A stretch of DNA of 48,046 bases, taken from positions 1-48,046 of the forward strand of contig JABHRR010000029.1 in assembly GCA_018670095.1 (NCBI GenBank), given 5' to 3'. The stretch comes from Candidatus Woesearchaeota archaeon. GTDB lineage: Archaea > Nanobdellota > Nanobdellia > Woesearchaeales > GW2011-AR9. Shown here in pieces: positions 139 through 16,478 of the stretch. The notes beneath the pieces were generated by a model that made no database searches, was not told the origin of the DNA, and worked only from the letters and a program-made list of their open reading frames with translations. Numbering within the stretch: the first letter of the stretch is position 1; each line of letters starts with the position of its first letter. The position numbers and the translations under genes are program-made.

Positions 139-250
139 TGGCCCCGCCGAGATTTGAACTCGGGACTTCACGATGTCTAGACCATACTTGATATATCAGT
201 TTCGCATCCAATAATGGAACGTGCGCTCTACCAAGCTAAGCCACGGGGCC
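139..250 (-). tRNA. tRNA-Ile(GAU) with two predicted introns (201..219 and 175..193)
   Basis: On the minus strand: acceptor GGCCCCG/CGGGGCC, discriminator A, D-arm GCTTAGCTTGGTAGAGC, T-arm CCGAG-TTCAAAT-CTCGG. Removing two 19-nt segments gives a perfect anticodon stem CACGA/TCGTG, loop CTGATAA (anticodon GAT) and a 74-nt mature tRNA. Confidence 0.88.
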
Positions 251-327: not shown

Positions 328-1122
328 TCACCATTCTTCAAAAACTTCTTCACTTCCATTAGGATGAATATAAACCACCTTACTTGAAGAATCAATACGA
401 CTAAAAGTTACATTAGCTAAATCTCTATTATCAAATTTATAAGTAGCACCTACAGTTGATTCTGGTATATGTACTTCACCTTTTTTCTGTCCTAAAAAAG
501 TAAAAGTACAATCTTTAGATCCAATACCAACATGTGAACCAATCTTTCCTCTGAAGATATATTGACAATGTTTTGAATCATTTCCTGTATCATAACCACA
601 ATCACCATGAATATCAAAAACGGTATGTTGTGAATTGTTTCCCACACAATTACCTATATTCCCATAAATATTTACTTTTAAAGATTTATTTGCATCGATA
701 CTTCTAAGAAGCATGGGAAGCCCAGATATTGGTTTTAAGTTTTGCACATCAAAATTAAATTCCTGTTGTTTAGAATCATGTAAACCTAATAACATTAGTC
801 TACTGATAAAAAATCCAGTATTTTTAGTATATCCAGGATGGTCTTCATAAATAGCTGTCATTTGTAAAAATCTATTTATCTCTTTCGGATTCAATAATTC
901 TTGAGTCCTAAGTAAAGATGAATTATATTTTTCAATTCGATTAACATACCAATAATTTAAATTTGCTCCATCAGCTTTATCTAAAAATTCACCATATTGA
1001 TTAAGTAATGATTTAAACTTATTCTCACCAACAACTTCTACACCACTTTCACTTTCTATACCTTGAGCAGTGTGACCACTAAGCGACTCTTCCAATGATC
1101 GCTTCTTCAGTGCTGGATTCAT
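328..1122 (-). CDS. Tagged GxxG-repeat paralog 1 (last gene of operon)
   Basis: N-term LKKRSLEESLSGHTAQGIESES; GNxGxxxGxxS repeats; C-term VVYIHPNGSEEV; 4-nt overlap with next gene. Confidence 0.9.
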   Translation of the reverse strand: MNPALKKRSLEESLSGHTAQGIESESGVEVVGENKFKSLLNQYGEFLDKADGANLNYWYVNRIEKYNSSLLRTQELLNPKEINRFLQMTAIYEDHPGYTKNTGFFISRLMLLGLHDSKQQEFNFDVQNLKPISGLPMLLRSIDANKSLKVNIYGNIGNCVGNNSQHTVFDIHGDCGYDTGNDSKHCQYIFRGKIGSHVGIGSKDCTFTFLGQKKGEVHIPESTVGATYKFDNRDLANVTFSRIDSSSKVVYIHPNGSEEVFEEW

Positions 1123-1904
1123 TTTGAATAGCTCCTCACTACTTCTTCTTTACCATTAGAATGAATATATACGATTCTATTTCCACTACAAACTTCATCT
1201 AATAAAATGTTTAATGTTTTTTTATTCGGAGTTTTGAATGTATTCGAAAGCAGGTGATTAGAATAAGATCTAGAATGATCTTCTCCATTTAAAACAAAGG
1301 TGCACCTTTCTGAATCATGTCCTATTTGAATACCAGAATTACCATTAATGATAAATTTAGAATTTTTAGCCCCCATTCCACATAGGCCCCTTACATTTCC
1401 ATTGATACAAAAAACCCCGTATTCAACATCTTGAAAAGGTTCGTAACCTAAATCACCAACAACATTTACTTTAATTTGTTTTCTTTCCTTTCCTTTCAGA
1501 AAAGATCCAAATTGATCAATTGGATTTAAACCGCTAATATCAAAATTAAATGTTCTGTGTCCTTTGTGATAGCTATTTCTAATAAGCCTACTAATTAAAA
1601 ATCCAGTATTTGGATTGTATAAATCCATATTTTCATAACAAACACATAATTGTAAAAATTTATTTATGTTTTTTGGAGTTAAAGTTTCTGTTATTTTCCA
1701 AGTAGCAATTGCATGTTTTTCATTGAAATCATCATCATTTATAACAGAAGGAAGCTTTGTTTTTAAGAACCGCTCACCTTTTCTTAATAGTTCTTTAAAT
1801 TCACCTTCACCAACAACTTCTACTCTACTTTCACTTTCAATAACCTGAGCAGTGTGATCACTAAGAGAATCTTCCAATGACTTCTTCTTTAATGTTGATT
1901 TCAT
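1119..1904 (-). CDS. Tagged GxxG-repeat paralog 2
   Basis: N-term LKKKSLEDSLSDHTAQVIESES; C-term IVYIHSNGKEEVVRSYSK; ATGA-type overlaps. Confidence 0.9.
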   Translation of the reverse strand: MKSTLKKKSLEDSLSDHTAQVIESESRVEVVGEGEFKELLRKGERFLKTKLPSVINDDDFNEKHAIATWKITETLTPKNINKFLQLCVCYENMDLYNPNTGFLISRLIRNSYHKGHRTFNFDISGLNPIDQFGSFLKGKERKQIKVNVVGDLGYEPFQDVEYGVFCINGNVRGLCGMGAKNSKFIINGNSGIQIGHDSERCTFVLNGEDHSRSYSNHLLSNTFKTPNKKTLNILLDEVCSGNRIVYIHSNGKEEVVRSYSK

Positions 1905-2683
1905 GAATAATCCCTCACAACTTCTTCTCTTCCATCTGGATTGATAAAAACTACTTTATTATATGATCTAGGTTTGACTCCATTTTCCCGGTCCAGTAAT
2001 TTCTTTAACAAATCTTCATCAGCAGTTTTGAATATGTTATCACTCATATTATATCCAAAAGATTGAAAATCCCCTTCAATCCTAACAGTTGAATCCGTCA
2101 GATTATCAAATGCGTAAAAACCAATATTTCCTCGAACATATATTTCTGAATCTTTAACACAAGCTCCAAAAAAAGAATCAGCATTTCCTTCAAAATTAAT
2201 TCTACACTTCTCAGAACCCCAAGCAAAATTAGAATCAACATTTCCTACAACATTAACAACTAAAGGATAACCAAGATCTCTATCTCTTAATTCTAAACAA
2301 ACTTCATTTAAAGGAGGTAAGTCAACAAGATCTATCTGGTAATTATTATGTCCAGCAATAAACGCATTATCAACCAACTTGCTGATAAAACATCCCAGAT
2401 AGCTGTAATAATTCTCATTATCTTTTAAATGTGGAGTTGCCTGTAAAAAAGCATTTAGTTCATGATTACTTAAAACATAAGGGATTCCTTGAAAGTAAGC
2501 TTCATCTAATTCAAGACGCTCACCTACAGGAATATCCCCTTCTAAAAACTTTTCAAAATTCTCAAGAACTTCAACAAGAACATTCTCACCAACAGTCTTA
2601 ATTCCACTCTCACTTTCAACTACTTGAGCAGTGTGTCCACTAAGCGACTCTTCCAATGACTTCTTCTTCAATGCTGTATTCAT
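1901..2683 (-). CDS. Tagged GxxG-repeat paralog 3 (subfamily A, with 9 and 11)
   Basis: N-term LKKKSLEESLSGHTAQVVESES; body nearly identical to ORFs 8441..9226 and 10116..10901. Confidence 0.9.
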   Translation of the reverse strand: MNTALKKKSLEESLSGHTAQVVESESGIKTVGENVLVEVLENFEKFLEGDIPVGERLELDEAYFQGIPYVLSNHELNAFLQATPHLKDNENYYSYLGCFISKLVDNAFIAGHNNYQIDLVDLPPLNEVCLELRDRDLGYPLVVNVVGNVDSNFAWGSEKCRINFEGNADSFFGACVKDSEIYVRGNIGFYAFDNLTDSTVRIEGDFQSFGYNMSDNIFKTADEDLLKKLLDRENGVKPRSYNKVVFINPDGREEVVRDYS

Positions 2684-2684
2684 T

Positions 2685-3632
2685 TTAGTAGTCCTTCACC
2701 ATTTCTTCTCTTCCATCAGAATGTAAATAAATAATCTTATTTTTTGAAGGTCTCCCTCTCACTTCTTTTATAAAACTAAAACTTCCTTCGAGAAAAGCAG
2801 GTATATCTTTAATTAAAGCCTTTAATGATTTACGAGATGATGTTGAAAACTCACAATTTCCCATTATTCTTTTTTGATACTCACTCTGCTCTTTATTAAC
2901 TAAGTAATCCCCCTGGATTTCATATGAAGAATTATGAGAATTTTGTCCAATCCGAGGGCCTACAGTTTGTTTTAAAACATACTTACCAGACATAGAATCT
3001 GTACCACAAGAATGAGCAACATTTCCTTCTACAACAAATTCACAATTTTGTGTTCCATGCCCTAAATAAAAATCAGCATGACCTTCAATATGAAATGTAG
3101 ATTTCTTAGAGAATCTACCAAAGCTAGAGCCTACATCTCCATACAAATGAACATCGACCCTTTCAAGACTATTAAATCCGTGACCATCACCATTATATTT
3201 TAAAGACATTCTCCTATCTTCCCCAGTTACACTTTGTAGTCCCCAAAACATTCCGTTTATAGGCCTAGTTAAACAATCTCCAGACAATTCAAATCCATTA
3301 TGTCCTTCTTTAAATGAATCATACAATAACCTAGTAAGTTGTGCTGCAAATAAAGGGTCAAAGTCAGGATCATCTTGATAATGTGAAGCAACTTCGAAAA
3401 ATAATTTAATTTCATCAGGAGTGAGAACACCCAATTCTTCTGCTTTAGATCGATGTTTATATTGAACATCAGTTTGTACAAGTAATTCACCTAAATTCTC
3501 TCGGAAAAAATTTAATTGTTTACTTAAGTTAGTATTTCCAGGAGTCTCTAAAGTTCTTACCACTTCAACAACCTGAGCAGTGTGACCACTAAGCGACTCT
3601 TCCAATGACTTCTTCTTCAGTGCTGTTTTCAT
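2685..3632 (-). CDS. Tagged GxxG-repeat paralog 4
   Basis: ORF 2685..3659; start moved to MKTALKKKSLEESLSGHTAQVVE to match the family, leaving the same 1-nt gap after the preceding stop as other junctions. Confidence 0.88.
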   Translation of the reverse strand: MKTALKKKSLEESLSGHTAQVVEVVRTLETPGNTNLSKQLNFFRENLGELLVQTDVQYKHRSKAEELGVLTPDEIKLFFEVASHYQDDPDFDPLFAAQLTRLLYDSFKEGHNGFELSGDCLTRPINGMFWGLQSVTGEDRRMSLKYNGDGHGFNSLERVDVHLYGDVGSSFGRFSKKSTFHIEGHADFYLGHGTQNCEFVVEGNVAHSCGTDSMSGKYVLKQTVGPRIGQNSHNSSYEIQGDYLVNKEQSEYQKRIMGNCEFSTSSRKSLKALIKDIPAFLEGSFSFIKEVRGRPSKNKIIYLHSDGREEMVKDY

Positions 3633-3633
3633 T

Positions 3634-4512
3634 TTATATTTCGAATATCTTTTCCTCATTACCTTTTGATTTAACTAAATAAACAGAAATCCCTCGAGGA
3701 GAATTATTATCGGGCTTTTCTTTATTTAAAGATTTTATAGCGATATGTGCTGAAGTTTCATCATAAAATTTAAACACACTATCTTTTGCTTCGCGACCAA
3801 TATACGGTATAAAATCTGTATCTATTTTTCCATGTAAAACAAAAGTACACCTTTCAGACATTAAACCCATTTGTTGTCCAGTATTCCCATAAATCTCAAA
3901 ATGACATCTTTTTGCATTATCACCAAGTTGGTATCCACTATCTCCATGTATTTCAAAAACAGAATCTTCTGAAAATGAACCCATAATCGAAATACTTTGA
4001 CCAAGACAACTTTTTATAATAGCTCTAACATTTTTAGCATATCCAAAACCACCACGTATTCCTTCTACATTTATTGATAAAGGATGATCTTTTGTGCCTT
4101 TTAAAGTCGTACCGACAAAATCTAAACCATTTTTTCTATTATCAAAATTAACATAAATATCTTCTAAATCTAATTCAAAATTATTGAATCCATGATTATA
4201 ACTTCTTTGGATTAAAGCAGATAAAAAATTACCACTGCTTCTAAAATGTTTATGATCAGTATGTGCTTGAAGTAAAGATGGAACTTTAGTAATATCTTCT
4301 GAAGTGATTATATCTTCGCCAATAAGTTTAGAAAGTACATACTGAGGGATACCAAATCTACTGCATTCTTCTAACCATTTAGTATAACCTCGATAAATGT
4401 TTGTTAATATAGAATCACCAACAACTTCCACTCCATTCTCACTTTCAATAGTACCACTAGTGTGATCACTAAGCGACTCTTCCAATGACTTCTTCTTCAA
4501 TGCTGTATTCAT
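3634..4512 (-). CDS. Tagged GxxG-repeat paralog 5
   Basis: N-term LKKKSLEESLSDHTSGTIESEN; GDSGYQLGDNAKRCHFEIYGNTGQQMGLMSERCTFVLHG repeats. Confidence 0.9.
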   Translation of the reverse strand: MNTALKKKSLEESLSDHTSGTIESENGVEVVGDSILTNIYRGYTKWLEECSRFGIPQYVLSKLIGEDIITSEDITKVPSLLQAHTDHKHFRSSGNFLSALIQRSYNHGFNNFELDLEDIYVNFDNRKNGLDFVGTTLKGTKDHPLSINVEGIRGGFGYAKNVRAIIKSCLGQSISIMGSFSEDSVFEIHGDSGYQLGDNAKRCHFEIYGNTGQQMGLMSERCTFVLHGKIDTDFIPYIGREAKDSVFKFYDETSAHIAIKSLNKEKPDNNSPRGISVYLVKSKGNEEKIFEI

Positions 4513-5633
4513 TCTGAATAATCCCTCACGAGTTCAAACTCTCCTTTACTATTTTGAAAAATAATTTTTCCACTTCTTAATTTCCATTTAGAATTGTAGG
4601 CTTCAGAAGAATTAACACATTTTTCAAGTAAAGATTTATTTGGAGTAATAAATGTAGAATTGTTTCCTATAAAAGAAGGGATTTTTTCAGATTCTCCATT
4701 AAGATAAAGTGTGCTTTCTTTAGCACAAATCATCATACTTCCTCCGACATTTCCTTTAATATGATAAAGAGATGATTTTGCTCCAAGACCAACATCTCCA
4801 GGAATATCTCCTTCAACATAAAATTGGCAACTAACAGAAGGGTTGTTTACATCATGTGGTCCAAGAGAACCCCCGTTACCTTTTAACACAAATAAACTAT
4901 TTTTAGCACTTGTACCAACATAATTTCCGAAATCACCATCTAAAAAATATGAGGAATTAGAAGAACCGTTACCTAAATTAATTCCAGTATTACTTTTCAA
5001 ATGAAAAATTGAATCTTTTGCTCCAGATCCAAGATAAGCACAAGTATCTCCTTCAATGAAAAAAACACAATTCTTTGAACTCTTAGCAGTAGAATGTTCA
5101 AATTTTCCTTTGAGGTTAAGGATTGAATTTTCTAAGAAACTAAATGAATCTTTTGAAAAATCCCCTTGAGCAGATAAAACTAAAGGATTATCTTTTCGAC
5201 CTTTTAAAAATGAGAAAGCCAAAGGTTCTTTAAATGTTCCTAGGAAGTCAAACTTAAAATTATTATGTCCACAATTATAACTATGTTGAACTAACCTTGA
5301 TAAAGTCAAATCAAGTTCATAAAATCTTTTTCCTTCATCAATATTCTGGGCCACAACTAAAGTTGAAAACGCAGAAAGCTCCATTGGAGTAAGTAACGGT
5401 GTAAATTTATGTTCTCCACAAACAAATTTTTCACGCATGCTTTTATTTTTACGAAATGATGGTGTGAAACCTGATGAAAGGTTTACTAACATTTCATGAA
5501 CCATAAAAGCATCCATTATATTAGATTCCCTAACGGGTTTAATGGTTTCAACTTTACCCTCACTTTCAATAACCTGAGCAGTGTGACCACTAAGAGATTC
5601 TTCCAATGACTTCTTCTTCAATGCTGTATTCAT
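4509..5633 (-). CDS. Tagged GxxG-repeat paralog 6 (longest repeat array)
   Basis: Start taken at MNTALKKKSLEESLSGHTAQVIESE (inside ORF 4509..5642); about 7-8 ~20-aa GxxG repeats. Confidence 0.9.
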   Translation of the reverse strand: MNTALKKKSLEESLSGHTAQVIESEGKVETIKPVRESNIMDAFMVHEMLVNLSSGFTPSFRKNKSMREKFVCGEHKFTPLLTPMELSAFSTLVVAQNIDEGKRFYELDLTLSRLVQHSYNCGHNNFKFDFLGTFKEPLAFSFLKGRKDNPLVLSAQGDFSKDSFSFLENSILNLKGKFEHSTAKSSKNCVFFIEGDTCAYLGSGAKDSIFHLKSNTGINLGNGSSNSSYFLDGDFGNYVGTSAKNSLFVLKGNGGSLGPHDVNNPSVSCQFYVEGDIPGDVGLGAKSSLYHIKGNVGGSMMICAKESTLYLNGESEKIPSFIGNNSTFITPNKSLLEKCVNSSEAYNSKWKLRSGKIIFQNSKGEFELVRDYSE

Positions 5634-5634
5634 T

Positions 5635-7545
5635 TTATCCATAAAACGTAGACTCTATTTTATCATCATCAGGAACAATTCTTCTGGCAGCACCAACTGC
5701 TAAACCTCGCAAATCTGTAGGTTTGTCAACTGGGATAATCTGCGTGTTAGGTAAAGTTGCTTCCGTCCAAATTTTGTAATCAGAAGAGTTGTCGATAAGG
5801 AAAATTGTATTCCTTGTAACGTCAGCTAAACTGTTAAGATAACCCACAACCTCGTCAATGTTAGCTATACCCCCATCGGTAATTAAGAAATTGTCGACTT
5901 TTTCATAAGTCTCTTTAATTCTACCGCGAAGATTCAGTTCAAGGTCCTTATCAACAAACTCCTTCTGTTTTTCTGGTGATAATGATCCTAAAAAATGTTC
6001 ATATTCTTGTTCTGTTGTAAAATATCTTGGCATATCTCTTACATCAGAATGAGCAACTCGTTCCATATACTCTTTGATTTTAGGAATATTCAAAGCAGTA
6101 CCTCCATTCCAAAAAGCACACATCATTGAATAAAAATCATTAAGTTCTCTGGTAGGCATTAAGAAAGCTGTATCAACTGAAAAATTAACAGCACCAACCT
6201 TAGCACCATTATTATGATAATTCCTCCCTAAAATAAAACCTGCCAACACTGCATTTGAACCATTACGAGGATCTTCCATCGATCCAGAACTATCAATGAT
6301 AACATTTGCATTTGGAACTTTGTACAACCTATCTCTTTTGTGACTCTGTTTTAATTTCTTTCTTCTAGTAATGGAAGGTAATATTCTTCCACCAGTTGAA
6401 AATGGATCTAAAGTTTTAATTGCATCACCTACCCTAAATCTTTCTGAACCTTCAGGGAAAGAATCAGTAGAGTCAACAACAATTGGTTTTTTATGAATAA
6501 ACATACCATATGTTGCAGCTAACCTTTCATAATATCCAATCTGATCATCATTATTTTTTAAATCAGAACTTCCTAAACCAATACCTTTACCTTTACTTTT
6601 AGGTGGAGTACGATCAAAATTTTTTCCAGTCTGTCTTTCAACATATTCTTTAACTCGTTCATATCGACCTTTATTCTTCCCTCGAATAATTGAATCTAAT
6701 CCGTCTTCTATTTGTTCATCAGTAAAATCTCCGATATTAATTGGTCTACCCATAACAGTGCCCTCACCTTGACCACTACCACTACCGCCTCCACCATTTT
6801 GCATAGATTTAGGTAAAATATTTTTACGTTTCTCTAAGACGTCCATGATATAATTACCAAACAAAATGAAGTTCTGTAAATTAGCACTTTCATCACCAAA
6901 ATCTAAAGTCATTAGTTGAGACAATTTTTCTTGGAAATATTCGTCATCTACATGAACTCCTAAGTCTTCTTTTGTTTGTTCTTGATAATATGAAATTAAT
7001 AATCTGTCAATAGAATACCTTTTCAAATCTTCCATAACTTGCTCAGGATCTTTTGAATGTTGTCTAAGTACTTCTTTTTGTTTTTCTGTAAAATCTTCTT
7101 CCTTTTCAATTAATAGGTTGAACCCTTTATACAATTCTCTAACGTCCTTTCCAGTTTTTTCTTTTAATATCTGTGGTAAGTTATCTTTCAAATCTACCCA
7201 GTATGCTAATACATCTTTAGCATATTCCCCGAATGAAGATTCAGCTAAATGTCCTAAAAACATTAGTTCTGCACATTCTCTTGGATAGTGAACGTAATGG
7301 CCAACTTCGTGTTTATAAATTCCTGCCAAAGCAGTTTCTGGATCCATTTCTCCATGTTCAACTAGTTGATCTAAAAATTCTTTAGAAACATGAGTTTCGT
7401 TTGTTTTGAAATCAAAGTAGGCAGTACCTATTCCTTCAATTTTATCTTCTAATTTAATATGTGGATATACTAAAGGATTGTAAAACTCGTGTAATACTCG
7501 AGGTGCAATTACTTTAGCTAATTCTTCCCATGTTATTTCAGTCAT
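5635..7545 (-). CDS. Metallopeptidase-motif (HEVGH) + von Willebrand factor A (MIDAS) fusion protein
   Basis: HEVGHYVHYPRE in the N-terminal half; NVIIDSSGSM (DxSxS), WNGGTALN and FLITDGG form a full MIDAS set in the C-terminal half; glycine-rich linker NGGGGSGSGQGEG. Confidence 0.85.
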   Translation of the reverse strand: MTEITWEELAKVIAPRVLHEFYNPLVYPHIKLEDKIEGIGTAYFDFKTNETHVSKEFLDQLVEHGEMDPETALAGIYKHEVGHYVHYPRECAELMFLGHLAESSFGEYAKDVLAYWVDLKDNLPQILKEKTGKDVRELYKGFNLLIEKEEDFTEKQKEVLRQHSKDPEQVMEDLKRYSIDRLLISYYQEQTKEDLGVHVDDEYFQEKLSQLMTLDFGDESANLQNFILFGNYIMDVLEKRKNILPKSMQNGGGGSGSGQGEGTVMGRPINIGDFTDEQIEDGLDSIIRGKNKGRYERVKEYVERQTGKNFDRTPPKSKGKGIGLGSSDLKNNDDQIGYYERLAATYGMFIHKKPIVVDSTDSFPEGSERFRVGDAIKTLDPFSTGGRILPSITRRKKLKQSHKRDRLYKVPNANVIIDSSGSMEDPRNGSNAVLAGFILGRNYHNNGAKVGAVNFSVDTAFLMPTRELNDFYSMMCAFWNGGTALNIPKIKEYMERVAHSDVRDMPRYFTTEQEYEHFLGSLSPEKQKEFVDKDLELNLRGRIKETYEKVDNFLITDGGIANIDEVVGYLNSLADVTRNTIFLIDNSSDYKIWTEATLPNTQIIPVDKPTDLRGLAVGAARRIVPDDDKIESTFYG

Positions 7546-8444
7546 TTTGAAACCTCCTGTAATTTTCCATCTTCTAATTCTCTGTATATTTTATGTCCAT
7601 GTCCAAAAAAAAGATGATTTAATAAATACTCTATAACATTCTCATTAGGAGATATAAATTTACAATTTTGTGCATTAAAATCTCCAACCCAATAATCACC
7701 CACTAGATCTCCACCAATTCTAAAAGTTGAATCTTTAGCTTGTTTAGCAAGATAATGACTACTTACATTTCCTCTCAAGTCAAAATAAGATTGTGAAGAA
7801 TTATATCCGAAACTGTAATCTATATTTCCATCTACAATAAATTTAGATTGACTAGAACTATTGCCCATTGCACCTTCAGCATTACCTTCTATGTGGTGTA
7901 AACTATTTTTTGCCCCAAAACCAAAACCATAACCTACATCTCCTTTAACAACAACATCGAGATAATGGCACCCCCTCAAAAGGTTAATACTATTACTTAC
8001 ATTCCTAAATGTAATTTTTGTTCTTTCTGATTCATCATTATTTACGTTGCCCCATATGTTTCCGAAAGGATTATGTTGTCCAAAACCCTGCAAATCAAAT
8101 TCAAACTCCCTATAACCTGCATCTCTGCTTCCATGAATAACTTCTTTGAAAAAACCACTAAATATTTCTGCATAATTTCTTTCATCCATAAAAACTTTAG
8201 ATGCATCTAAAAATAATGCAGCTTCTTCAGAAGTAAGTGCTCCAACTGTTTCTCTTAGTTGAAAAGCTATTAATGAAACTTTAAAACCACGTTTAAAATA
8301 ATCAAAGTATTCTTCAGCTACTCTCAAATATTCAGTGACTTTATTATTTCCAACAACTTCTATTACTTTTCTTTCTTCAACCTGAGTAGTGTGACCACTA
8401 AGAGAATCTTCTAATGACTTCTTCTTCAATTTTATTTTTTTCAT
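7542..8444 (-). CDS. Tagged GxxG-repeat paralog 8 (subfamily C)
   Basis: N-term KKIKLKKKSLEDSLSGHTTQVEE; C-term IYRELEDGKLQEVSK; closest to ORF 9223..10119. Confidence 0.9.
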   Translation of the reverse strand: MKKIKLKKKSLEDSLSGHTTQVEERKVIEVVGNNKVTEYLRVAEEYFDYFKRGFKVSLIAFQLRETVGALTSEEAALFLDASKVFMDERNYAEIFSGFFKEVIHGSRDAGYREFEFDLQGFGQHNPFGNIWGNVNNDESERTKITFRNVSNSINLLRGCHYLDVVVKGDVGYGFGFGAKNSLHHIEGNAEGAMGNSSSQSKFIVDGNIDYSFGYNSSQSYFDLRGNVSSHYLAKQAKDSTFRIGGDLVGDYWVGDFNAQNCKFISPNENVIEYLLNHLFFGHGHKIYRELEDGKLQEVSK

Positions 8445-9226
8445 GAGTAATCCCTCACCAGTTCTTCTGTTCCATCTGGTTTGATAAAAATAACTTTATT
8501 ATCTGATCCAAGTTTTATCCCAGATTTGCTGTCCAGTAATTTCTTCAACAGATATTCATCAGCAGTTTTGAATATACTGCCATCAATGTTATATCCAAGA
8601 TTTTGGAAATCTCCTTCAATCCTAACGATTGAACCTGATATTTCCTCAAATGCGTCAGAACCCATATTTCCTCGAGCATATATCTCTGAATCTTTAACAT
8701 TAGCACAAAAATAGTGATTAGCATTTCCTTCAAAATTAATTCTACACTTCTCAGCACCCCAAGCAAAATCAGAACCAACATTTCCTACTACATTAACAAC
8801 TAAAGGATAACCAAGGTCTCTATCTCTTAATTCTAAACAAACTTCATCTAAAGGAGGTAAGTCAACAAGATCTATCTGGTAATTATTATGTCCTGCAATA
8901 AACGCATTATCAACTAACTTACTGATAAAATATCCCAGATATCTTTTATAATCCTCATTATCTTTTAAATGCGGAGTTGCCTGTAAAAAAGCATTTAGTT
9001 CATGATTACTTAAAACATAAGGGATTCCTTGAAAGTATTTTTCATCTAATTCAAAAGGCACATCTTCAGGAATATCTCTTTCTAAAAACTTTTCAAAATT
9101 CTCAAGAACTTCAACAAGAACATTCTCACCAACAACTTCAACTCTTCTTTCACTTTCAATAACACCACTAGTGTGACTACTAAGAGATTCTTCCAACGAC
9201 TTCTTCTTCAATGCTAATTCATTCAT
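8441..9226 (-). CDS. Tagged GxxG-repeat paralog 9 (subfamily A)
   Basis: N-term LKKKSLEESLSSHTSGVIESE; C-term VIFIKPDGTEELVRDYS. Confidence 0.9.
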   Translation of the reverse strand: MNELALKKKSLEESLSSHTSGVIESERRVEVVGENVLVEVLENFEKFLERDIPEDVPFELDEKYFQGIPYVLSNHELNAFLQATPHLKDNEDYKRYLGYFISKLVDNAFIAGHNNYQIDLVDLPPLDEVCLELRDRDLGYPLVVNVVGNVGSDFAWGAEKCRINFEGNANHYFCANVKDSEIYARGNMGSDAFEEISGSIVRIEGDFQNLGYNIDGSIFKTADEYLLKKLLDSKSGIKLGSDNKVIFIKPDGTEELVRDYS

Positions 9227-10119
9227 CTTGTAACCTCCTGTAATTTGCCGTCTTCTAATTCTCTAAAGATTCTATTCTCCTGACCCCTAGGGACTCTATC
9301 ATAAAATGATTTTATAACTTCTTCATTAGGAGATATAAATTTACAAATTCGAGATTCTTTTCCTATTTTATAATCTCTAGAAAGATCTTCAATTCTAAAA
9401 GTCGAATGGTCAGATTTATTAGCAAGACAAAAACCATTTACTTTTCCTCTTAAATCAAAATAACAATCTGAAGATTTATATCCACAATTATGATCTACAT
9501 CTCCTTCAACAAAAAACTTAGAACTTACAGCTGTATGTCCAAGACCGTATGATGCTTTTCCTTTTATATGGGCATTAGAAACCTTAAAAAGGTATGCAAA
9601 GTTTTTTCCAACATCCCCTTCAACAATAGCTTCAACATAACTACTAGCAATAAAAATATCTTTAGGCAAAGCATAGCTTTTAATTTTAATTTTTAATTTA
9701 GGACCCGGATGTTCTTTACCTTCTAAAGCAAAAATAGGTGTTGCATCATCTTTTCCAAACAAACTTAAATCAAATTCAAAATCATTATGTCCCGCCCCAT
9801 AACTGGTCTGAATAACCCTCCTAAAAAATTCACCAAAAATATTGTCAGGATCTTTTTCATTTACATATGCTAAAGATGCCTGTAATAATATTTCAGCTTC
9901 TCCAGGCGTAAGAATTCCTAACAGACCTTTAAGTTTTTCATACCTAGCTCTTACAATTGAACCTAGACCTTCATCCAAAAAACTTTCAAATACTTTTAGA
10001 TGTAATCCTACTTTACTATCTCCAGCAACTTCTACTCCTTTCTTATCTTCAACTTGAGCAGTGTGACCACTAAGAGATTCTTCTAAACTTTTACCTTTCT
10101 TCAATTTTATTTTTTTCAT
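9223..10119 (-). CDS. Tagged GxxG-repeat paralog 10 (subfamily C)
   Basis: N-term KKIKLKKGKSLEESLSGHTAQVED; C-term IFRELEDGKLQEVTR. Confidence 0.9.
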   Translation of the reverse strand: MKKIKLKKGKSLEESLSGHTAQVEDKKGVEVAGDSKVGLHLKVFESFLDEGLGSIVRARYEKLKGLLGILTPGEAEILLQASLAYVNEKDPDNIFGEFFRRVIQTSYGAGHNDFEFDLSLFGKDDATPIFALEGKEHPGPKLKIKIKSYALPKDIFIASSYVEAIVEGDVGKNFAYLFKVSNAHIKGKASYGLGHTAVSSKFFVEGDVDHNCGYKSSDCYFDLRGKVNGFCLANKSDHSTFRIEDLSRDYKIGKESRICKFISPNEEVIKSFYDRVPRGQENRIFRELEDGKLQEVTR

Positions 10120-10901
10120 GAGTAATCCCTCACCAATTCTTCTGTTCCATCAGATTTGATAAAAACTACTTTATTATTTGTTCCAAGTTTTATTCCATAT
10201 CTTGGAATCAATAATTTCTTTAACAAATCTTCATCAGCAGTTTTGAATACATTACCACTCATGCTATATCCAAAAGCTTGGAAATCTCCTTCAATCCTAA
10301 CAATTGAACGTTCCATTTCTACAAATGCGCTAGAACCAATATTTCCTCGAGCATATATTTCTGAATCTTTAACATTAGCACAAAAATAGTGATTAGCATT
10401 TCCTTCAAAATTAATTCTACACTTCTCAGCGCCCCAAGCAAAATCAGAACCAACATTTCCTACCACATTAACAACTAAAGGATAACCAAGGTCTCTATCT
10501 CTTAATTCTAAACAAACTTCATCTAAAGGGGGTAAATCAACAAGATCTATCCGGTAATTATTATGTCCTGCAATAAATGCATTATCAACCAACTTACTGA
10601 TAAAATATCCCATATTTCTTTTATAATTCTCATCCTCTTTTAAATGTAAAGTTGCCCGTAAAAAAGCATTTAGTTCATGATTACTTAAAACATAAGGGAT
10701 TCCTAGAAATGGTTTTTTATCTAATTCAAAAGTTTCATCTTCAGGAATATCTTTTTCTAAAAACTTTTCAAAGTTCTGAACAACTTCAACAAGAACATTC
10801 TCACCAACAGTTTCAACTTTACTCTCACTTTCAATAACCTGAGCAGTGTGACCACTAAGAGAATCTTCCAATGACTTACCTTTCTTTATTGCTGCTTTCA
10901 T
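10116..10901 (-). CDS. Tagged GxxG-repeat paralog 11 (subfamily A)
   Basis: N-term IKKGKSLEDSLSGHTAQVIESES; body nearly identical to paralogs 3 and 9. Confidence 0.9.
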   Translation of the reverse strand: MKAAIKKGKSLEDSLSGHTAQVIESESKVETVGENVLVEVVQNFEKFLEKDIPEDETFELDKKPFLGIPYVLSNHELNAFLRATLHLKEDENYKRNMGYFISKLVDNAFIAGHNNYRIDLVDLPPLDEVCLELRDRDLGYPLVVNVVGNVGSDFAWGAEKCRINFEGNANHYFCANVKDSEIYARGNIGSSAFVEMERSIVRIEGDFQAFGYSMSGNVFKTADEDLLKKLLIPRYGIKLGTNNKVVFIKSDGTEELVRDYS

Positions 10902-11692
10902 TTCTCAACCACCAATAATTCTTTTTTACCATCTGGATGAACAAAATAAATTTCATTATACTTAAGAGCTTCAGCATATATTGCAGTATATTTCTTTCTA
11001 ATAATTTCAAACGATTCTCTATCTGAAATTAAAGCAGTAGATCCTTTCGCATTAACAAGATTAATGTTTTCAACCCTACTTTTTAAATCAAATAAACAAT
11101 TAGATGAACAAAAACCAGTCATCACACCAACATCTCCACTAACATAAAATTCAGAATTATTAGCACGATCCCCACAATAAAAACCTGTATCACCATCTAA
11201 ATAAAATTTAACATCATTTGAATTAACACCTAAGTGGGTTCCAACATTTCCTTTAACTCTGATAGATAAAGGTTGTTCTTGAGATCCATCTAAAAAAGCA
11301 CCCATCGCTGATAAAAGTCTTAGATTCTGAACATTCAAATCAAATAATGAATTGCCATCATTATAAGATGTTTGTATTAACCCACTCAAAAATATAGAAG
11401 TATTTAACAAATAATAAGAATGGTCTTCATTAGTAATAGTTGATTGTAAAAAAGTATTAATCTCGGCAGGACTTAAAACAGTCTTAATTTGATCTCTAAT
11501 TCTAACCCAAGCATTTACATCAAGATCACCATCTGTAATAAAATTTCTATCAAGAAATTCTCTATACTGATCAAGAACACCACCAAACTTACCATCTCCA
11601 ACAGTTTCAACTCTACTCTCACTTTCAATAACACCACTAGTGTGACCACTAAGCGAATCTTCCAATGACTTCTTCTTCAAAGCTGTATTCAT
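10898..11692 (-). CDS. Tagged GxxG-repeat paralog 12 (subfamily B)
   Basis: N-term LKKKSLEDSLSGHTSGVIESES; C-term EIYFVHPDGKKELLVVEK. Confidence 0.9.
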   Translation of the reverse strand: MNTALKKKSLEDSLSGHTSGVIESESRVETVGDGKFGGVLDQYREFLDRNFITDGDLDVNAWVRIRDQIKTVLSPAEINTFLQSTITNEDHSYYLLNTSIFLSGLIQTSYNDGNSLFDLNVQNLRLLSAMGAFLDGSQEQPLSIRVKGNVGTHLGVNSNDVKFYLDGDTGFYCGDRANNSEFYVSGDVGVMTGFCSSNCLFDLKSRVENINLVNAKGSTALISDRESFEIIRKKYTAIYAEALKYNEIYFVHPDGKKELLVVEK

Positions 11693-12492
11693 TTTTCAAT
11701 CACCAAAAGTTCTTTATGTCCATCTGGATGAACAAAATAAATTTCATTACGTTCAAGTGCTTCAGCACGCACTACTCCAGCATATTTCTCTCTAGTTCTT
11801 TCAAACAAGTCTCTATCTGAAATTAAAAAAGTAGATCCTTTCGCATTAGCAAGATAAATATCTTTAACTTTACCTCGCAAATCAAATAAACTGTCACGAG
11901 AACCAAAACCAACCCCAGAAACATCTCCCTCAATATAAAATTCAGAATTTTGACTACAAGAACCACAAAAGAGAGTAGTATTTCCATTTAAATAAAACTT
12001 AACATCTTTAGAACTAACACCTAAATAGCTGTCTATATTACCATTAACTTTTATAGATAAAGGTTGTTCTTGAGATCCGTCCAAAAAAGCCCCTATGGCC
12101 CACAAAGAATTAAAATTCTGAACATTCAAATCAAAAGACGAATTACCATCATTATAAGACTCCTGAATTAATCCACTTAAAAATAAAGAAGTATTTGACC
12201 AATAAAGAGGATGATCATCACAGATAGCAGTTAATTGTAAAAAATTATTAATTTCTTCAGGGGTTAAAGTCCGTTTAACTAAATCAAAAGCATAACTTAC
12301 ATCCTCAGCATCAAAAGCACTACCTTGATAATTAAAAATCAAATTCTTATCAAGAAATTCTTTATACTGATCAAGAATATCCCTTAATTCATTTTCCCCA
12401 ACAACTTCTACTAATCTCTCACTTTCAATAGTACCGCCAGTGTGACCATTAAGAGATTCTTCCAATGACTTCTTCTTCAGTGCGGTATTCAT
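11689..12492 (-). CDS. Tagged GxxG-repeat paralog 13 (subfamily B)
   Basis: N-term LKKKSLEESLNGHTGGTIESE; C-term EIYFVHPDGHKELLVIEK. Confidence 0.9.
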   Translation of the reverse strand: MNTALKKKSLEESLNGHTGGTIESERLVEVVGENELRDILDQYKEFLDKNLIFNYQGSAFDAEDVSYAFDLVKRTLTPEEINNFLQLTAICDDHPLYWSNTSLFLSGLIQESYNDGNSSFDLNVQNFNSLWAIGAFLDGSQEQPLSIKVNGNIDSYLGVSSKDVKFYLNGNTTLFCGSCSQNSEFYIEGDVSGVGFGSRDSLFDLRGKVKDIYLANAKGSTFLISDRDLFERTREKYAGVVRAEALERNEIYFVHPDGHKELLVIEK

Positions 12493-13286
12493 TTTTCAAC
12501 CACCAAAAGTTCTTTAGTATTATCAGGATGAACAAAATAAACCCCGTTATATTCAAGAGCTTCAACATGAGGAGTTTTTGTATGATATTCACTAATTCTT
12601 TTAAACGATTCTGGGTCTGAAATTAAAACAGTAGAACCTTTTGCATTAGTAAGATGAAGTCCATCAACTTTACCACGCAAATCAAACAGACAATCAGATG
12701 AACCAAAACCAGCCACGCGAGAAACATTTCCACTAATATAAAATTTAGAATTACAAGCCAAGGAACCACAAAACTTATCTGTATCACCATCCAAATAAAA
12801 CTTAACACCACCCGAATTTATACCAAAATAACCAGCTACATTTCCTTTTACTCTAACAGAATAAGGGTGTTCTCTAGTTCTACATAAAAATGCTCCAACC
12901 CCTTCTAAAGGTTTTAATCCTTGAACATTCAAATCAAAAAATTCATTACCATCATTAAAAGACGCCTGTATTAATCCACTCAGAAACAAAGAAGTATTTC
13001 TACAATAGTAAGAATGATCTTCATTAATTATAGTTGTTTTCAAAAAAGCATTAATTTCTTTAGGACTTAAAACAGTTTTAACTTGAGCAAAAGTAATATA
13101 TCTTGCTTGATAATTAAACCCGGTAGAATTAAAATCTATCTCCAGAAACTCTTGATACTGATCAAATAAAACTTTAAACTTATTCCCTCCAACAACTTCA
13201 ACGGCCCTAGAACTATCTACATGAGCAGTATGTCCTTCTAGCATAGTCTCCAGACTAGGTCCTTTCTTCAAATGGTTGTGGGTCAT
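12489..13286 (-). CDS. Tagged GxxG-repeat paralog 14 (subfamily B, divergent tag)
   Basis: Start taken at MTHNHLKKGPSLETMLEGHTAHVDSS, with GAGG SD ~9 nt upstream; C-term GVYFVHPDNTKELLVVEK. Confidence 0.87.
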   Translation of the reverse strand: MTHNHLKKGPSLETMLEGHTAHVDSSRAVEVVGGNKFKVLFDQYQEFLEIDFNSTGFNYQARYITFAQVKTVLSPKEINAFLKTTIINEDHSYYCRNTSLFLSGLIQASFNDGNEFFDLNVQGLKPLEGVGAFLCRTREHPYSVRVKGNVAGYFGINSGGVKFYLDGDTDKFCGSLACNSKFYISGNVSRVAGFGSSDCLFDLRGKVDGLHLTNAKGSTVLISDPESFKRISEYHTKTPHVEALEYNGVYFVHPDNTKELLVVEK

Positions 13287-15116: not shown

Positions 15117-15194
15117 ATGTCAAAAATTTCTTACAAAGCAGCAATGAGTTGTCACACATTAAGTTCTTTCATAGAAAGTGAAGAAGAAGAATAA
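15117..15194 (+). CDS. Putative leaderless 25-aa microprotein
   Basis: MSKISYKAAMSCHTLSSFIESEEEE*; tttataaaa TATA-like box ~30 nt upstream of ATG. Confidence 0.35.
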   Translation: MSKISYKAAMSCHTLSSFIESEEEE

Positions 15195-15386: not shown

Positions 15387-16478
15387 ATGAGACTTATTTC
15401 ACTGATTACACATGGTTTTTTAGCCGCATCATTGATGGGCACACCTCATCAAAGCCATAATATAAATGATCTTATTAAAACTAATCATGAAGTTGTTCAA
15501 AATGAAACTGCCGAAATTGAACCATCAGAGTTATATATTGTAACTGAGATTGAAGGTTCTCAACAAGCTGACCAAAAGCCTAAAAAAGTTACTATTGATG
15601 ACAAAGTAAATTTACATGCTGTATTAAAAGCAAAAGAAAACAATAAATCAATTTATTTTTCAAACGCAAAAAATATCAAAATTAATGGTAAAAAAATAAA
15701 CCCTAAACAAATCAAACCCTGGCCAAAAACAAAAGAAATTGATATTGAATGGTTTAAAGTTGAACCAATAAAAGAAAGTTATTCATACGTTAATTCAGGA
15801 AATAGAATTAAATATGAAGAAACTAAATTTGATCAAGGGTGGACAACCATTGCAGACGTTCATCCAACATACCTAATGGATCAATTTCCTGAAGAAAAAA
15901 CTGGTGTGGGAGTTATGCGTTATAAAGTAAAATTAGCTACTGACAATAAAACTTTATCAACACCAGGTAAAAATAAAAATCGTAAAGGTGGTATAAGCGA
16001 TAAACTTGTCCGTGTATCATTTCGTCCAAACACTGGCAGTTGGGTAGATTATGTTTTTGAACTGTTTAACACGCCTTACATTTGGGGTAGTAGAACTAAA
16101 CAAATTGATGGCCAAGTTGGTTCAGACTGTGCAGACTTTGCCTTATATGGATGGAGACGAGCAGGAAGTAAGTTACCATATACTTGGTCCTATGGCCTTA
16201 AAGATAAAAAGTATACAAAAAACGTTGCAACAATTGATGGGATGACAGACAACGGTCATTTTTTAAATCAGAAAAGAAAAGAAATTACTTATTCACAAGT
16301 TAATGAGGGTGATGTAATTTTATATCCAAGACACATTGCTGTGCTATACAAAGATAATGGCAACAAAATATTTGATTGTGATGATTTAGTATTACATACT
16401 TTATTTGAAGAACCTAAAATTGATACGGTCTGTGAAGCTTATGGCATTCCCGAAGAAGTACTTCGTTGGAAAAAATAA
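15387..16478 (+). CDS. Secreted NlpC/P60-like cysteine peptidase candidate
   Basis: Hydrophobic N-term MRLISLITHGFLAASLMG; FNTPYIWGS...VGSDCADFALYGWRRAG...VNEGDVILYPRHIAVLY matches the NlpC/P60 Cys/His layout. Confidence 0.7.
   Translation: MRLISLITHGFLAASLMGTPHQSHNINDLIKTNHEVVQNETAEIEPSELYIVTEIEGSQQADQKPKKVTIDDKVNLHAVLKAKENNKSIYFSNAKNIKINGKKINPKQIKPWPKTKEIDIEWFKVEPIKESYSYVNSGNRIKYEETKFDQGWTTIADVHPTYLMDQFPEEKTGVGVMRYKVKLATDNKTLSTPGKNKNRKGGISDKLVRVSFRPNTGSWVDYVFELFNTPYIWGSRTKQIDGQVGSDCADFALYGWRRAGSKLPYTWSYGLKDKKYTKNVATIDGMTDNGHFLNQKRKEITYSQVNEGDVILYPRHIAVLYKDNGNKIFDCDDLVLHTLFEEPKIDTVCEAYGIPEEVLRWKK

Follow-up and report, generated by a model that had tools for sequence, protein, structure and literature searches.

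A short N-terminal peptide shared by the divergent paralogs of a MoxR–VWA operon in a Woesearchaeota archaeon and its candidate role as an operon-specific docking tag

The DNA analysed here (the window) is a 48,046-nucleotide stretch from a Candidatus Woesearchaeota archaeon (assembly GCA_018670095.1, contig JABHRR010000029.1) that carries one minus-strand operon, in which an RHH-like gene and a gene for a MoxR-type AAA+ ATPase are followed by paralogs M to G, a gene for a VWA protein and paralogs F to A, with neighbouring genes overlapping by 4 bases (Table 1). The 13 paralogs, which lie between positions 328 and 13286 with seven upstream and six downstream of the VWA gene, all begin with a near-identical short peptide, SLEESLSGHTAQVIESE, referred to below as the tag. 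The AAA_5 and AAA_lid_2 matches of the ATPase both exceed their cut-offs and place it among MoxR-type AAA+ proteins, and it is 49-59% identical to the MoxR proteins of sister operons. The 53-aa RHH-like protein is, judged by its sequence, a possible regulator of the operon.

An alignment of the 13 copies bears out the observation of an earlier, sequence-only reading of this DNA that every paralog carries the peptide and that these N-terminal residues are far more conserved than the bodies behind them. The 10-residue core is 0.86 identical between pairs of window paralogs against 0.27 for the bodies, the best 10-column block outside the tag reaches only 0.46 (mean 0.28), and the invariant residues of the alignment fall mostly within the tag (M1, K6, S9, L10, E11, L14, H17 and T18). 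The core consensus is KSLE[ED]SLSGHT, from which copies A (R-S-L-E) and M (PSLETMLEGHT) depart, and IESE follows the core, as had been noted for most copies, in all but D, G, I and M; copy M is the first paralog of the operon and its tag uses different codons. MoxR, the VWA protein and the RHH protein are without the tag, as that reading also held, and the conserved DNA of the paralogs starts at the start codon. Genome-wide searches of the kind it had proposed were run as DNA patterns: in the 1.2 Mb genome, which is 84% complete and so may lack a further tagged gene, the back-translated, degenerate core found these 13 sites and one chance-like match on another contig (C10), and a reversed control pattern found none. 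A tiny plus-strand reading frame at 15119-15194, MSKISYKAAMSCHTLSSFIESEEEE, contains an HT...IESE string like that of the tag, probably by chance.

Table 1. Genes of the tagged operon in the window, in order of transcription.
Feature	Coordinates	Strand	Tag core	Remarks
RHH-like protein, 53 aa	14679..14840	-		untagged; overlaps MoxR start; open reading frame, with the RHH call made by sequence appearance only
MoxR-type AAA+ ATPase, 463 aa	13298..14689	-		untagged; Pfam AAA_5 6.8e-11, AAA_lid_2 2e-11
Paralog M	12489..13286	-	13228-13256	divergent tag SLETMLEGHT
Paralog L	11689..12492	-	12440-12468	
Paralog K	10898..11692	-	11640-11668	AlphaFold2: residues 1-32 disordered, body pLDDT ~97
Paralog J	10116..10901	-	10846-10874	
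Paralog I	9223..10119	-	10061-10089	
Paralog H	8441..9226	-	9171-9199	
Paralog G	7542..8444	-	8389-8417	
VWA protein, 636 aa	5635..7545	-		untagged; N-terminal HEVGHYVHYPRE (HExxH), C-terminal VWA with MIDAS
Paralog F	4509..5633	-	5581-5609	
Paralog E	3634..4512	-	4460-4488	
Paralog D	2685..3632	-	3580-3608	GXGXG beta-solenoid
Paralog C	1901..2683	-	2631-2659	
Paralog B	1119..1904	-	1852-1880	
Paralog A	328..1122	-	1070-1098	

In an AlphaFold2 model of paralog K built on 31 relatives (mean predicted local distance difference test score, pLDDT, 88.6), residues 1-32 score below 50 at nearly every position and contain a single short turn of helix (residues 10-13), and from residue 35 onward the chain forms a helical domain and a beta-solenoid that score mostly near 97. 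The tag is thereby predicted to be a disordered tail on a well-folded body. The bodies resemble, weakly by both sequence and fold, the GXGXG solenoids of glutamate synthase and FwdC, and the best score against GXGXG family PF01493 (26.7 bits) stays below the curated cut-off of 32.5; paralog D matches Pfam GXGXG at 4.9e-6, under that cut-off, and FwdC at 6.3e-6. The operon offers no enzyme context, and only the scaffold is held in common with these proteins. The tagged proteins show none of the hydrophobic stretches expected for export, for a signal peptide or for a membrane helix, which suggests that the system is probably cytosolic.

The VWA protein, encoded in the same operon as MoxR, retains the residues of the metal-ion-dependent adhesion site (MIDAS; D418xS420xS422, T483, D557), of which DxSxS, T and D are invariant in the relatives compared. 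Its N-terminal half carries HExGH; an HExxH motif is present in every near-complete VWA relative examined, the most distant included, and the MIDAS in nearly all, and this half may form a putative zinc-peptidase-like domain. No significant match to the protein was obtained in Pfam or NCBIfam, and a fold search with its weak model (mean pLDDT 61) ranked VWA/I-domain structures first, at E 5e-3 at best. The anti-phage models of PADLOC gave no convincing match for MoxR, the VWA protein or the paralogs.

The same operon type is present in five further genomes of the window's family, and matches to the VWA protein, weak ones included, extend to 42 of the 359 genomes in the order and to 34 of the 383 sampled from the class. 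The named records with related operons are Woesearchaeota or Nanoarchaeota (DPANN) metagenome assemblies; the operon occurs patchily, being absent from two further members of the window's genus, and searches of viral contigs found no relatives. In a tree of the bodies those of the window form nearly one group, which makes lineage-specific expansion part of the story, and those of G124 and G125 intermix (G, C and L numbers are our handles for genomes, contigs and loci).

Within each of these operons the members have a tag in common; tags from different operons resemble one another only loosely, even where the bodies are homologous. The tags read GGGLDDVLRGMKPQKPEE in G030, GTGIDDLVRDYVPERVEE in G032, DLDRILEGLNPDSVEE in G039, GLDDLIRGYTARKPDERKEI in G124, LALKKLKGIKPKGVKVK in G291 (at least 15 copies), LTGIEKREKKE in G052, PLEEQLRKIK in G351 (10 copies), VLGDLETPTPEKKLKV in G454, DLIKRIGIKPTNKRNEALDTYI in G494 and MPIDDYLxxLE in G557 (~12 copies), and G125 possesses two arrays bearing different tags, the second being LDGIDDARDVQAREQTTLDKL. 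By eye there is a suggestive common skeleton of L..G and a hydrophobic residue followed by charged ones. Within these operons, as in the window, the core far surpasses the body in identity: the two values are 0.85 and 0.26 in G291, 0.92 and 0.11 in G351, and 0.85 and 0.32 in G124. The sequence-only reading had looked to wider alignments for a tag better conserved than the body, an expectation that stood within operons and failed between operons with homologous bodies, where tags are 0.13-0.37 and bodies 0.25-0.29 identical, since tags are operon-specific; a peptide free to change between operons and held within one would be hidden by a cross-genome alignment. Its further proposal, that conserved acids in the tag coordinate the metal at the MIDAS of the VWA protein, does not survive as a general mechanism, as the G291 tag contains no acid though the VWA protein of that operon keeps its MIDAS.

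In some operons the tag is also portable between folds: in G351 a single tag, with all 10 copies inside one cluster, stands on GXGXG, TPR and coiled-coil proteins that have unrelated bodies. At the level of the class, we examined 20 loci that had not been used to form the idea, 16 of which had at least two flanking genes. At 13 of these 16, an N-terminal 12-mer was shared at 6 or more of 12 positions in 0.27-1.00 of the flanking-gene pairs, against 0.09 of cross-locus pairs; in many loci the bodies are alike too, and tag and body separate clearly only in G407, G566, G557, G616 and G489. No tag is apparent at the VWA N-termini of the other operons, those of G263 and G508 being ambiguous. Two enlarged forms of tagged protein were seen: solenoids in G030 (L057:7913-10296) lengthened by numerous repeats (GNVGxxCGxxSxxGTYxI), each at most ~24 residues long, that resemble one another and vary in their turn residues, and a 742-aa protein in G124 (L118:11746-13974) that corresponds to about three paralog bodies fused behind one tag. 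A long cluster in G211 (C23; L127, L103, L128) with genes that look PP2C- and kinase-like by eye encodes two proteins with LEERLKETFQRLKEREAAEAA-like N-termini in common, which may represent a further tag system lacking a recognised VWA protein.

Judged by its substitution pattern, the tag is under purifying selection. The ratio of nonsynonymous to synonymous polymorphism (pN/pS) in the core is 0.37 in the window, 0.17 in G291 and 0.07 in G351, and lies at 0.07-0.44 in most operons, exceeding 0.6 in 4 of 15 sets. Selection on the peptide is nevertheless not the whole account, as the likeness of synonymous sites in the tag exceeds expectation in every operon tested: at identical tag residues of the window, codon identity is 0.76 against an expected 0.48, whereas the bodies are near expectation, a sign of DNA exchange. 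Among the recent C/H/J trio, moreover, the tags differ more than the helical part of the body, as if they had been exchanged. These observations, together with the 4-base gene overlaps, would be accommodated by an effect at the level of DNA, in which gene conversion or recent duplication makes the 5' ends uniform, or these ends have a part in recombination or in coupling translation, with no special role for the peptide. We regard that account, already weakened, as very improbable: pure gene conversion is insufficient to explain a similarity that begins at the start codon and in which nonsynonymous change is suppressed, and the tag stands on unrelated folds and, in G616, on genes of different contigs. 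We read the pattern as selection on the peptide combined with exchange of 5' ends between copies, both of which appear to act.

A second line of evidence connects the tag to diversity-generating retroelements (DGRs), whose signature is that template and variable repeat differ specifically at template adenines. Tagged proteins are DGR targets at six loci (G566, G441, two loci in G251, G514 and G616), over which template and variable repeats show 86 differences, 82 of them at template adenines. Reverse transcriptases adjoin the tag operons of G566, G441 and G514 and both loci of G251. Eight tagged proteins match the template repeats at their C-terminal ends, with 64 of the 68 differences at template adenines, so that at least some tagged proteins combine a constant N-terminus with a hypermutated C-terminus. 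In G616 the arrangement is dispersed: a DGR target on contig C6, beside its own reverse transcriptase and with 18 of 18 differences at adenines, bears the tag of the MoxR–VWA operon on contig C10, and the genome holds eight tag sites on six contigs, the operon contig and five others, on several unrelated bodies, with no sites for a control pattern. Tagged DGR targets of G616 lie far from the MoxR–VWA operon (L168:1013-3192 on C6; L185 on C11), the variable end of that on C11 showing an apparent likeness to the C6 template with a one-codon deletion. A body from G251 aligns, from residue 49 and hence after the tag, to the crystallised DGR protein AvpA (5IOO; E 1.3e-6); the G251 proteins share with archaeal DGR proteins of the AvpA type (PMC5006420) this body and an adenine-specific variable region, and differ in adding a ~40-residue N-terminal tag and in sitting in a MoxR–VWA operon. 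In a later survey, DGRs of the CPR/DPANN clade 5F are described as lacking conflict-system domains (PMC10907252), which would be a contrast if the reverse transcriptases found here belong to that clade. Other reverse transcriptases, in G125 (C5; L169) and G251 (C69; L174), have targets of their own without the tag; adenine-type differences were seen at these two retroelements and at one in G008 (C24; L173).

On balance we consider it probable that the tag is an operon-specific docking peptide that couples variable recognition proteins to a MoxR–VWA core. A disordered N-terminal tail of ~15-25 residues would bring a range of recognition proteins to a single common core, consisting of a MoxR AAA+ ring and a VWA protein with its HExxH zinc-peptidase-like domain, and the recognition heads would be GXGXG-type beta-solenoids in the window and TPR or DGR-diversified C-type-lectin-like proteins elsewhere. 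Purifying selection and 5'-end exchange would keep the tails matched to their reader while the heads diversify. A head may then bind its target in the cytosol, its tail keeping it plugged into VWA–MoxR, and target binding could trigger ATP-driven remodelling, the peptidase, or both. Gene neighbourhood and co-occurrence suggest that the core reads the peptide, which may bind the VWA protein or MoxR directly. The sequence-only reading had proposed a recognition peptide read by this machinery, and the disordered tail, the purifying selection, the unrelated folds within one operon and the association with MoxR and a VWA/HExxH protein are all in keeping with a portable peptide of that kind; operon-specific tags, heterologous bodies and the link to retroelements are points beyond it.

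Several observations weigh against a docking role. Neither MoxR nor the VWA protein was shown to co-vary with the tag, MoxR–VWA loci without a tag array occur in the class sample (G606, G368, G622 and G417), and the bodies in the window have a nonsynonymous to synonymous rate ratio (dN/dS) below 1. An RVT_1 search found no reverse transcriptase in the window genome, so that its paralogs do not qualify as DGR targets, diversity there would come from the paralogs, and the window solenoids are putative recognition proteins. In addition, tags were gathered with patterns fitted by eye, which favour copies that match, and the genomes are metagenome assemblies with predicted gene starts, whose bins may mix genomes.

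The closest known relatives of this arrangement are the MoxR–vWA ternary conflict systems of Kaur et al. 2020 (PMC7159879), which share with it the MoxR AAA+ and vWA core and variable partners joined via a shared terminal adaptor, adaptors of the same operon being most alike. In those bacterial systems the adaptors are folded effector-associated domains (EADs), with one copy on the core, and DPANN archaea are not mentioned (PMC7159879). By analogy the tag may work as an EAD does, but it lacks two features that define EADs, being short and disordered where they are folded domains, and absent from the core proteins. The vWA protein here also has an HExxH domain, and Pfam and NCBIfam searches of window operon proteins, made without VMAP-specific models, recognised no component of VMAP, iSTAND or FtsH type. 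The same differences bear on the idea that identical tails bind each other with no reader in the core, which the presence of the tag on all members and the homotypic interaction proposed for EADs (PMC7159879) would favour: because EADs are folded and have a copy on a core component, and the tag is short, disordered and missing from MoxR and VWA, we hold homotypic assembly to be improbable.

The NorQ–NorD and RavA–ViaA chaperones resemble the core in pairing a MoxR ring with a VWA partner that has a MIDAS, and differ in serving one or few dedicated clients; here the tagged clients come in arrays and an HExxH domain is present. An alternative modelled on NorQD or Rea1/Midasin is that a MoxR–VWA chaperone brings the tagged proteins into a common complex by loading or remodelling them, HExxH possibly clipping the tag as a leader after assembly. 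The MoxR/VWA pairs of known role are indeed remodelling chaperones (PMC13036017), the HExxH motif is conserved and the tag is a flexible N-terminal tail; DGR-diversified proteins and unrelated folds under one tag are, on the other hand, unlike the subunits of one fixed complex, and no cleavage motif was found across operons, so that we judge an assembly or maturation tag unlikely, though it merits some weight. AAA+ proteins, peptidase-like domains and disordered terminal tails are also the usual ingredients of regulated proteolysis. As a degron, the tag would send surplus or target-bound proteins to the VWA peptidase and MoxR for destruction, operon specificity preventing cross-degradation, and conserved HExxH and a disordered terminal tail would fit. 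A whole operon of proteins made for their own destruction would be wasteful unless conditional, however, and to our knowledge no MoxR protein is a processive unfoldase feeding a VWA protein; we give a degron very little credence. In the PEP-CTERM/exosortase system, too, many divergent proteins carry one short signal for one machine per genome, but those signals are C-terminal and membrane-linked, and the tag is a soluble N-terminal peptide that each operon has in a version of its own.

The DGR-diversified proteins of DPANN archaea are usually explained as agents of host attachment, and the tag ties such proteins to a MoxR–VWA core that is probably cytosolic. If the docking role is correct, these operons would amount to a naturally occurring collection of docking peptides that look orthogonal to one another, and would show a new means by which AAA+/VWA machines recruit many clients. 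More tentatively, and with less confidence than we place in docking itself, the whole might amount to antibody-like modular recognition in DPANN archaea, in which operon-private constant tails join exchangeable variable heads to an AAA+/VWA/metallopeptidase signalling core, several insulated systems coexist in a cell, and an immune-like purpose is possible. In the open-licence literature on MoxR with DPANN or Woesearchaeota we found no description of the tag arrangement. A 20-residue peptide of the tag would be a direct handle for pulling down its interaction partner.

Two features adjoin the operon in the window. Directly after it lies an intron-containing tRNA (139-250, minus strand) that Rfam detects and ARAGORN does not, and beside it, at 15387-16478 on the plus strand, is a gene for a secreted-looking protein of NlpC/P60 type (1.8e-4, just under the cut-off).

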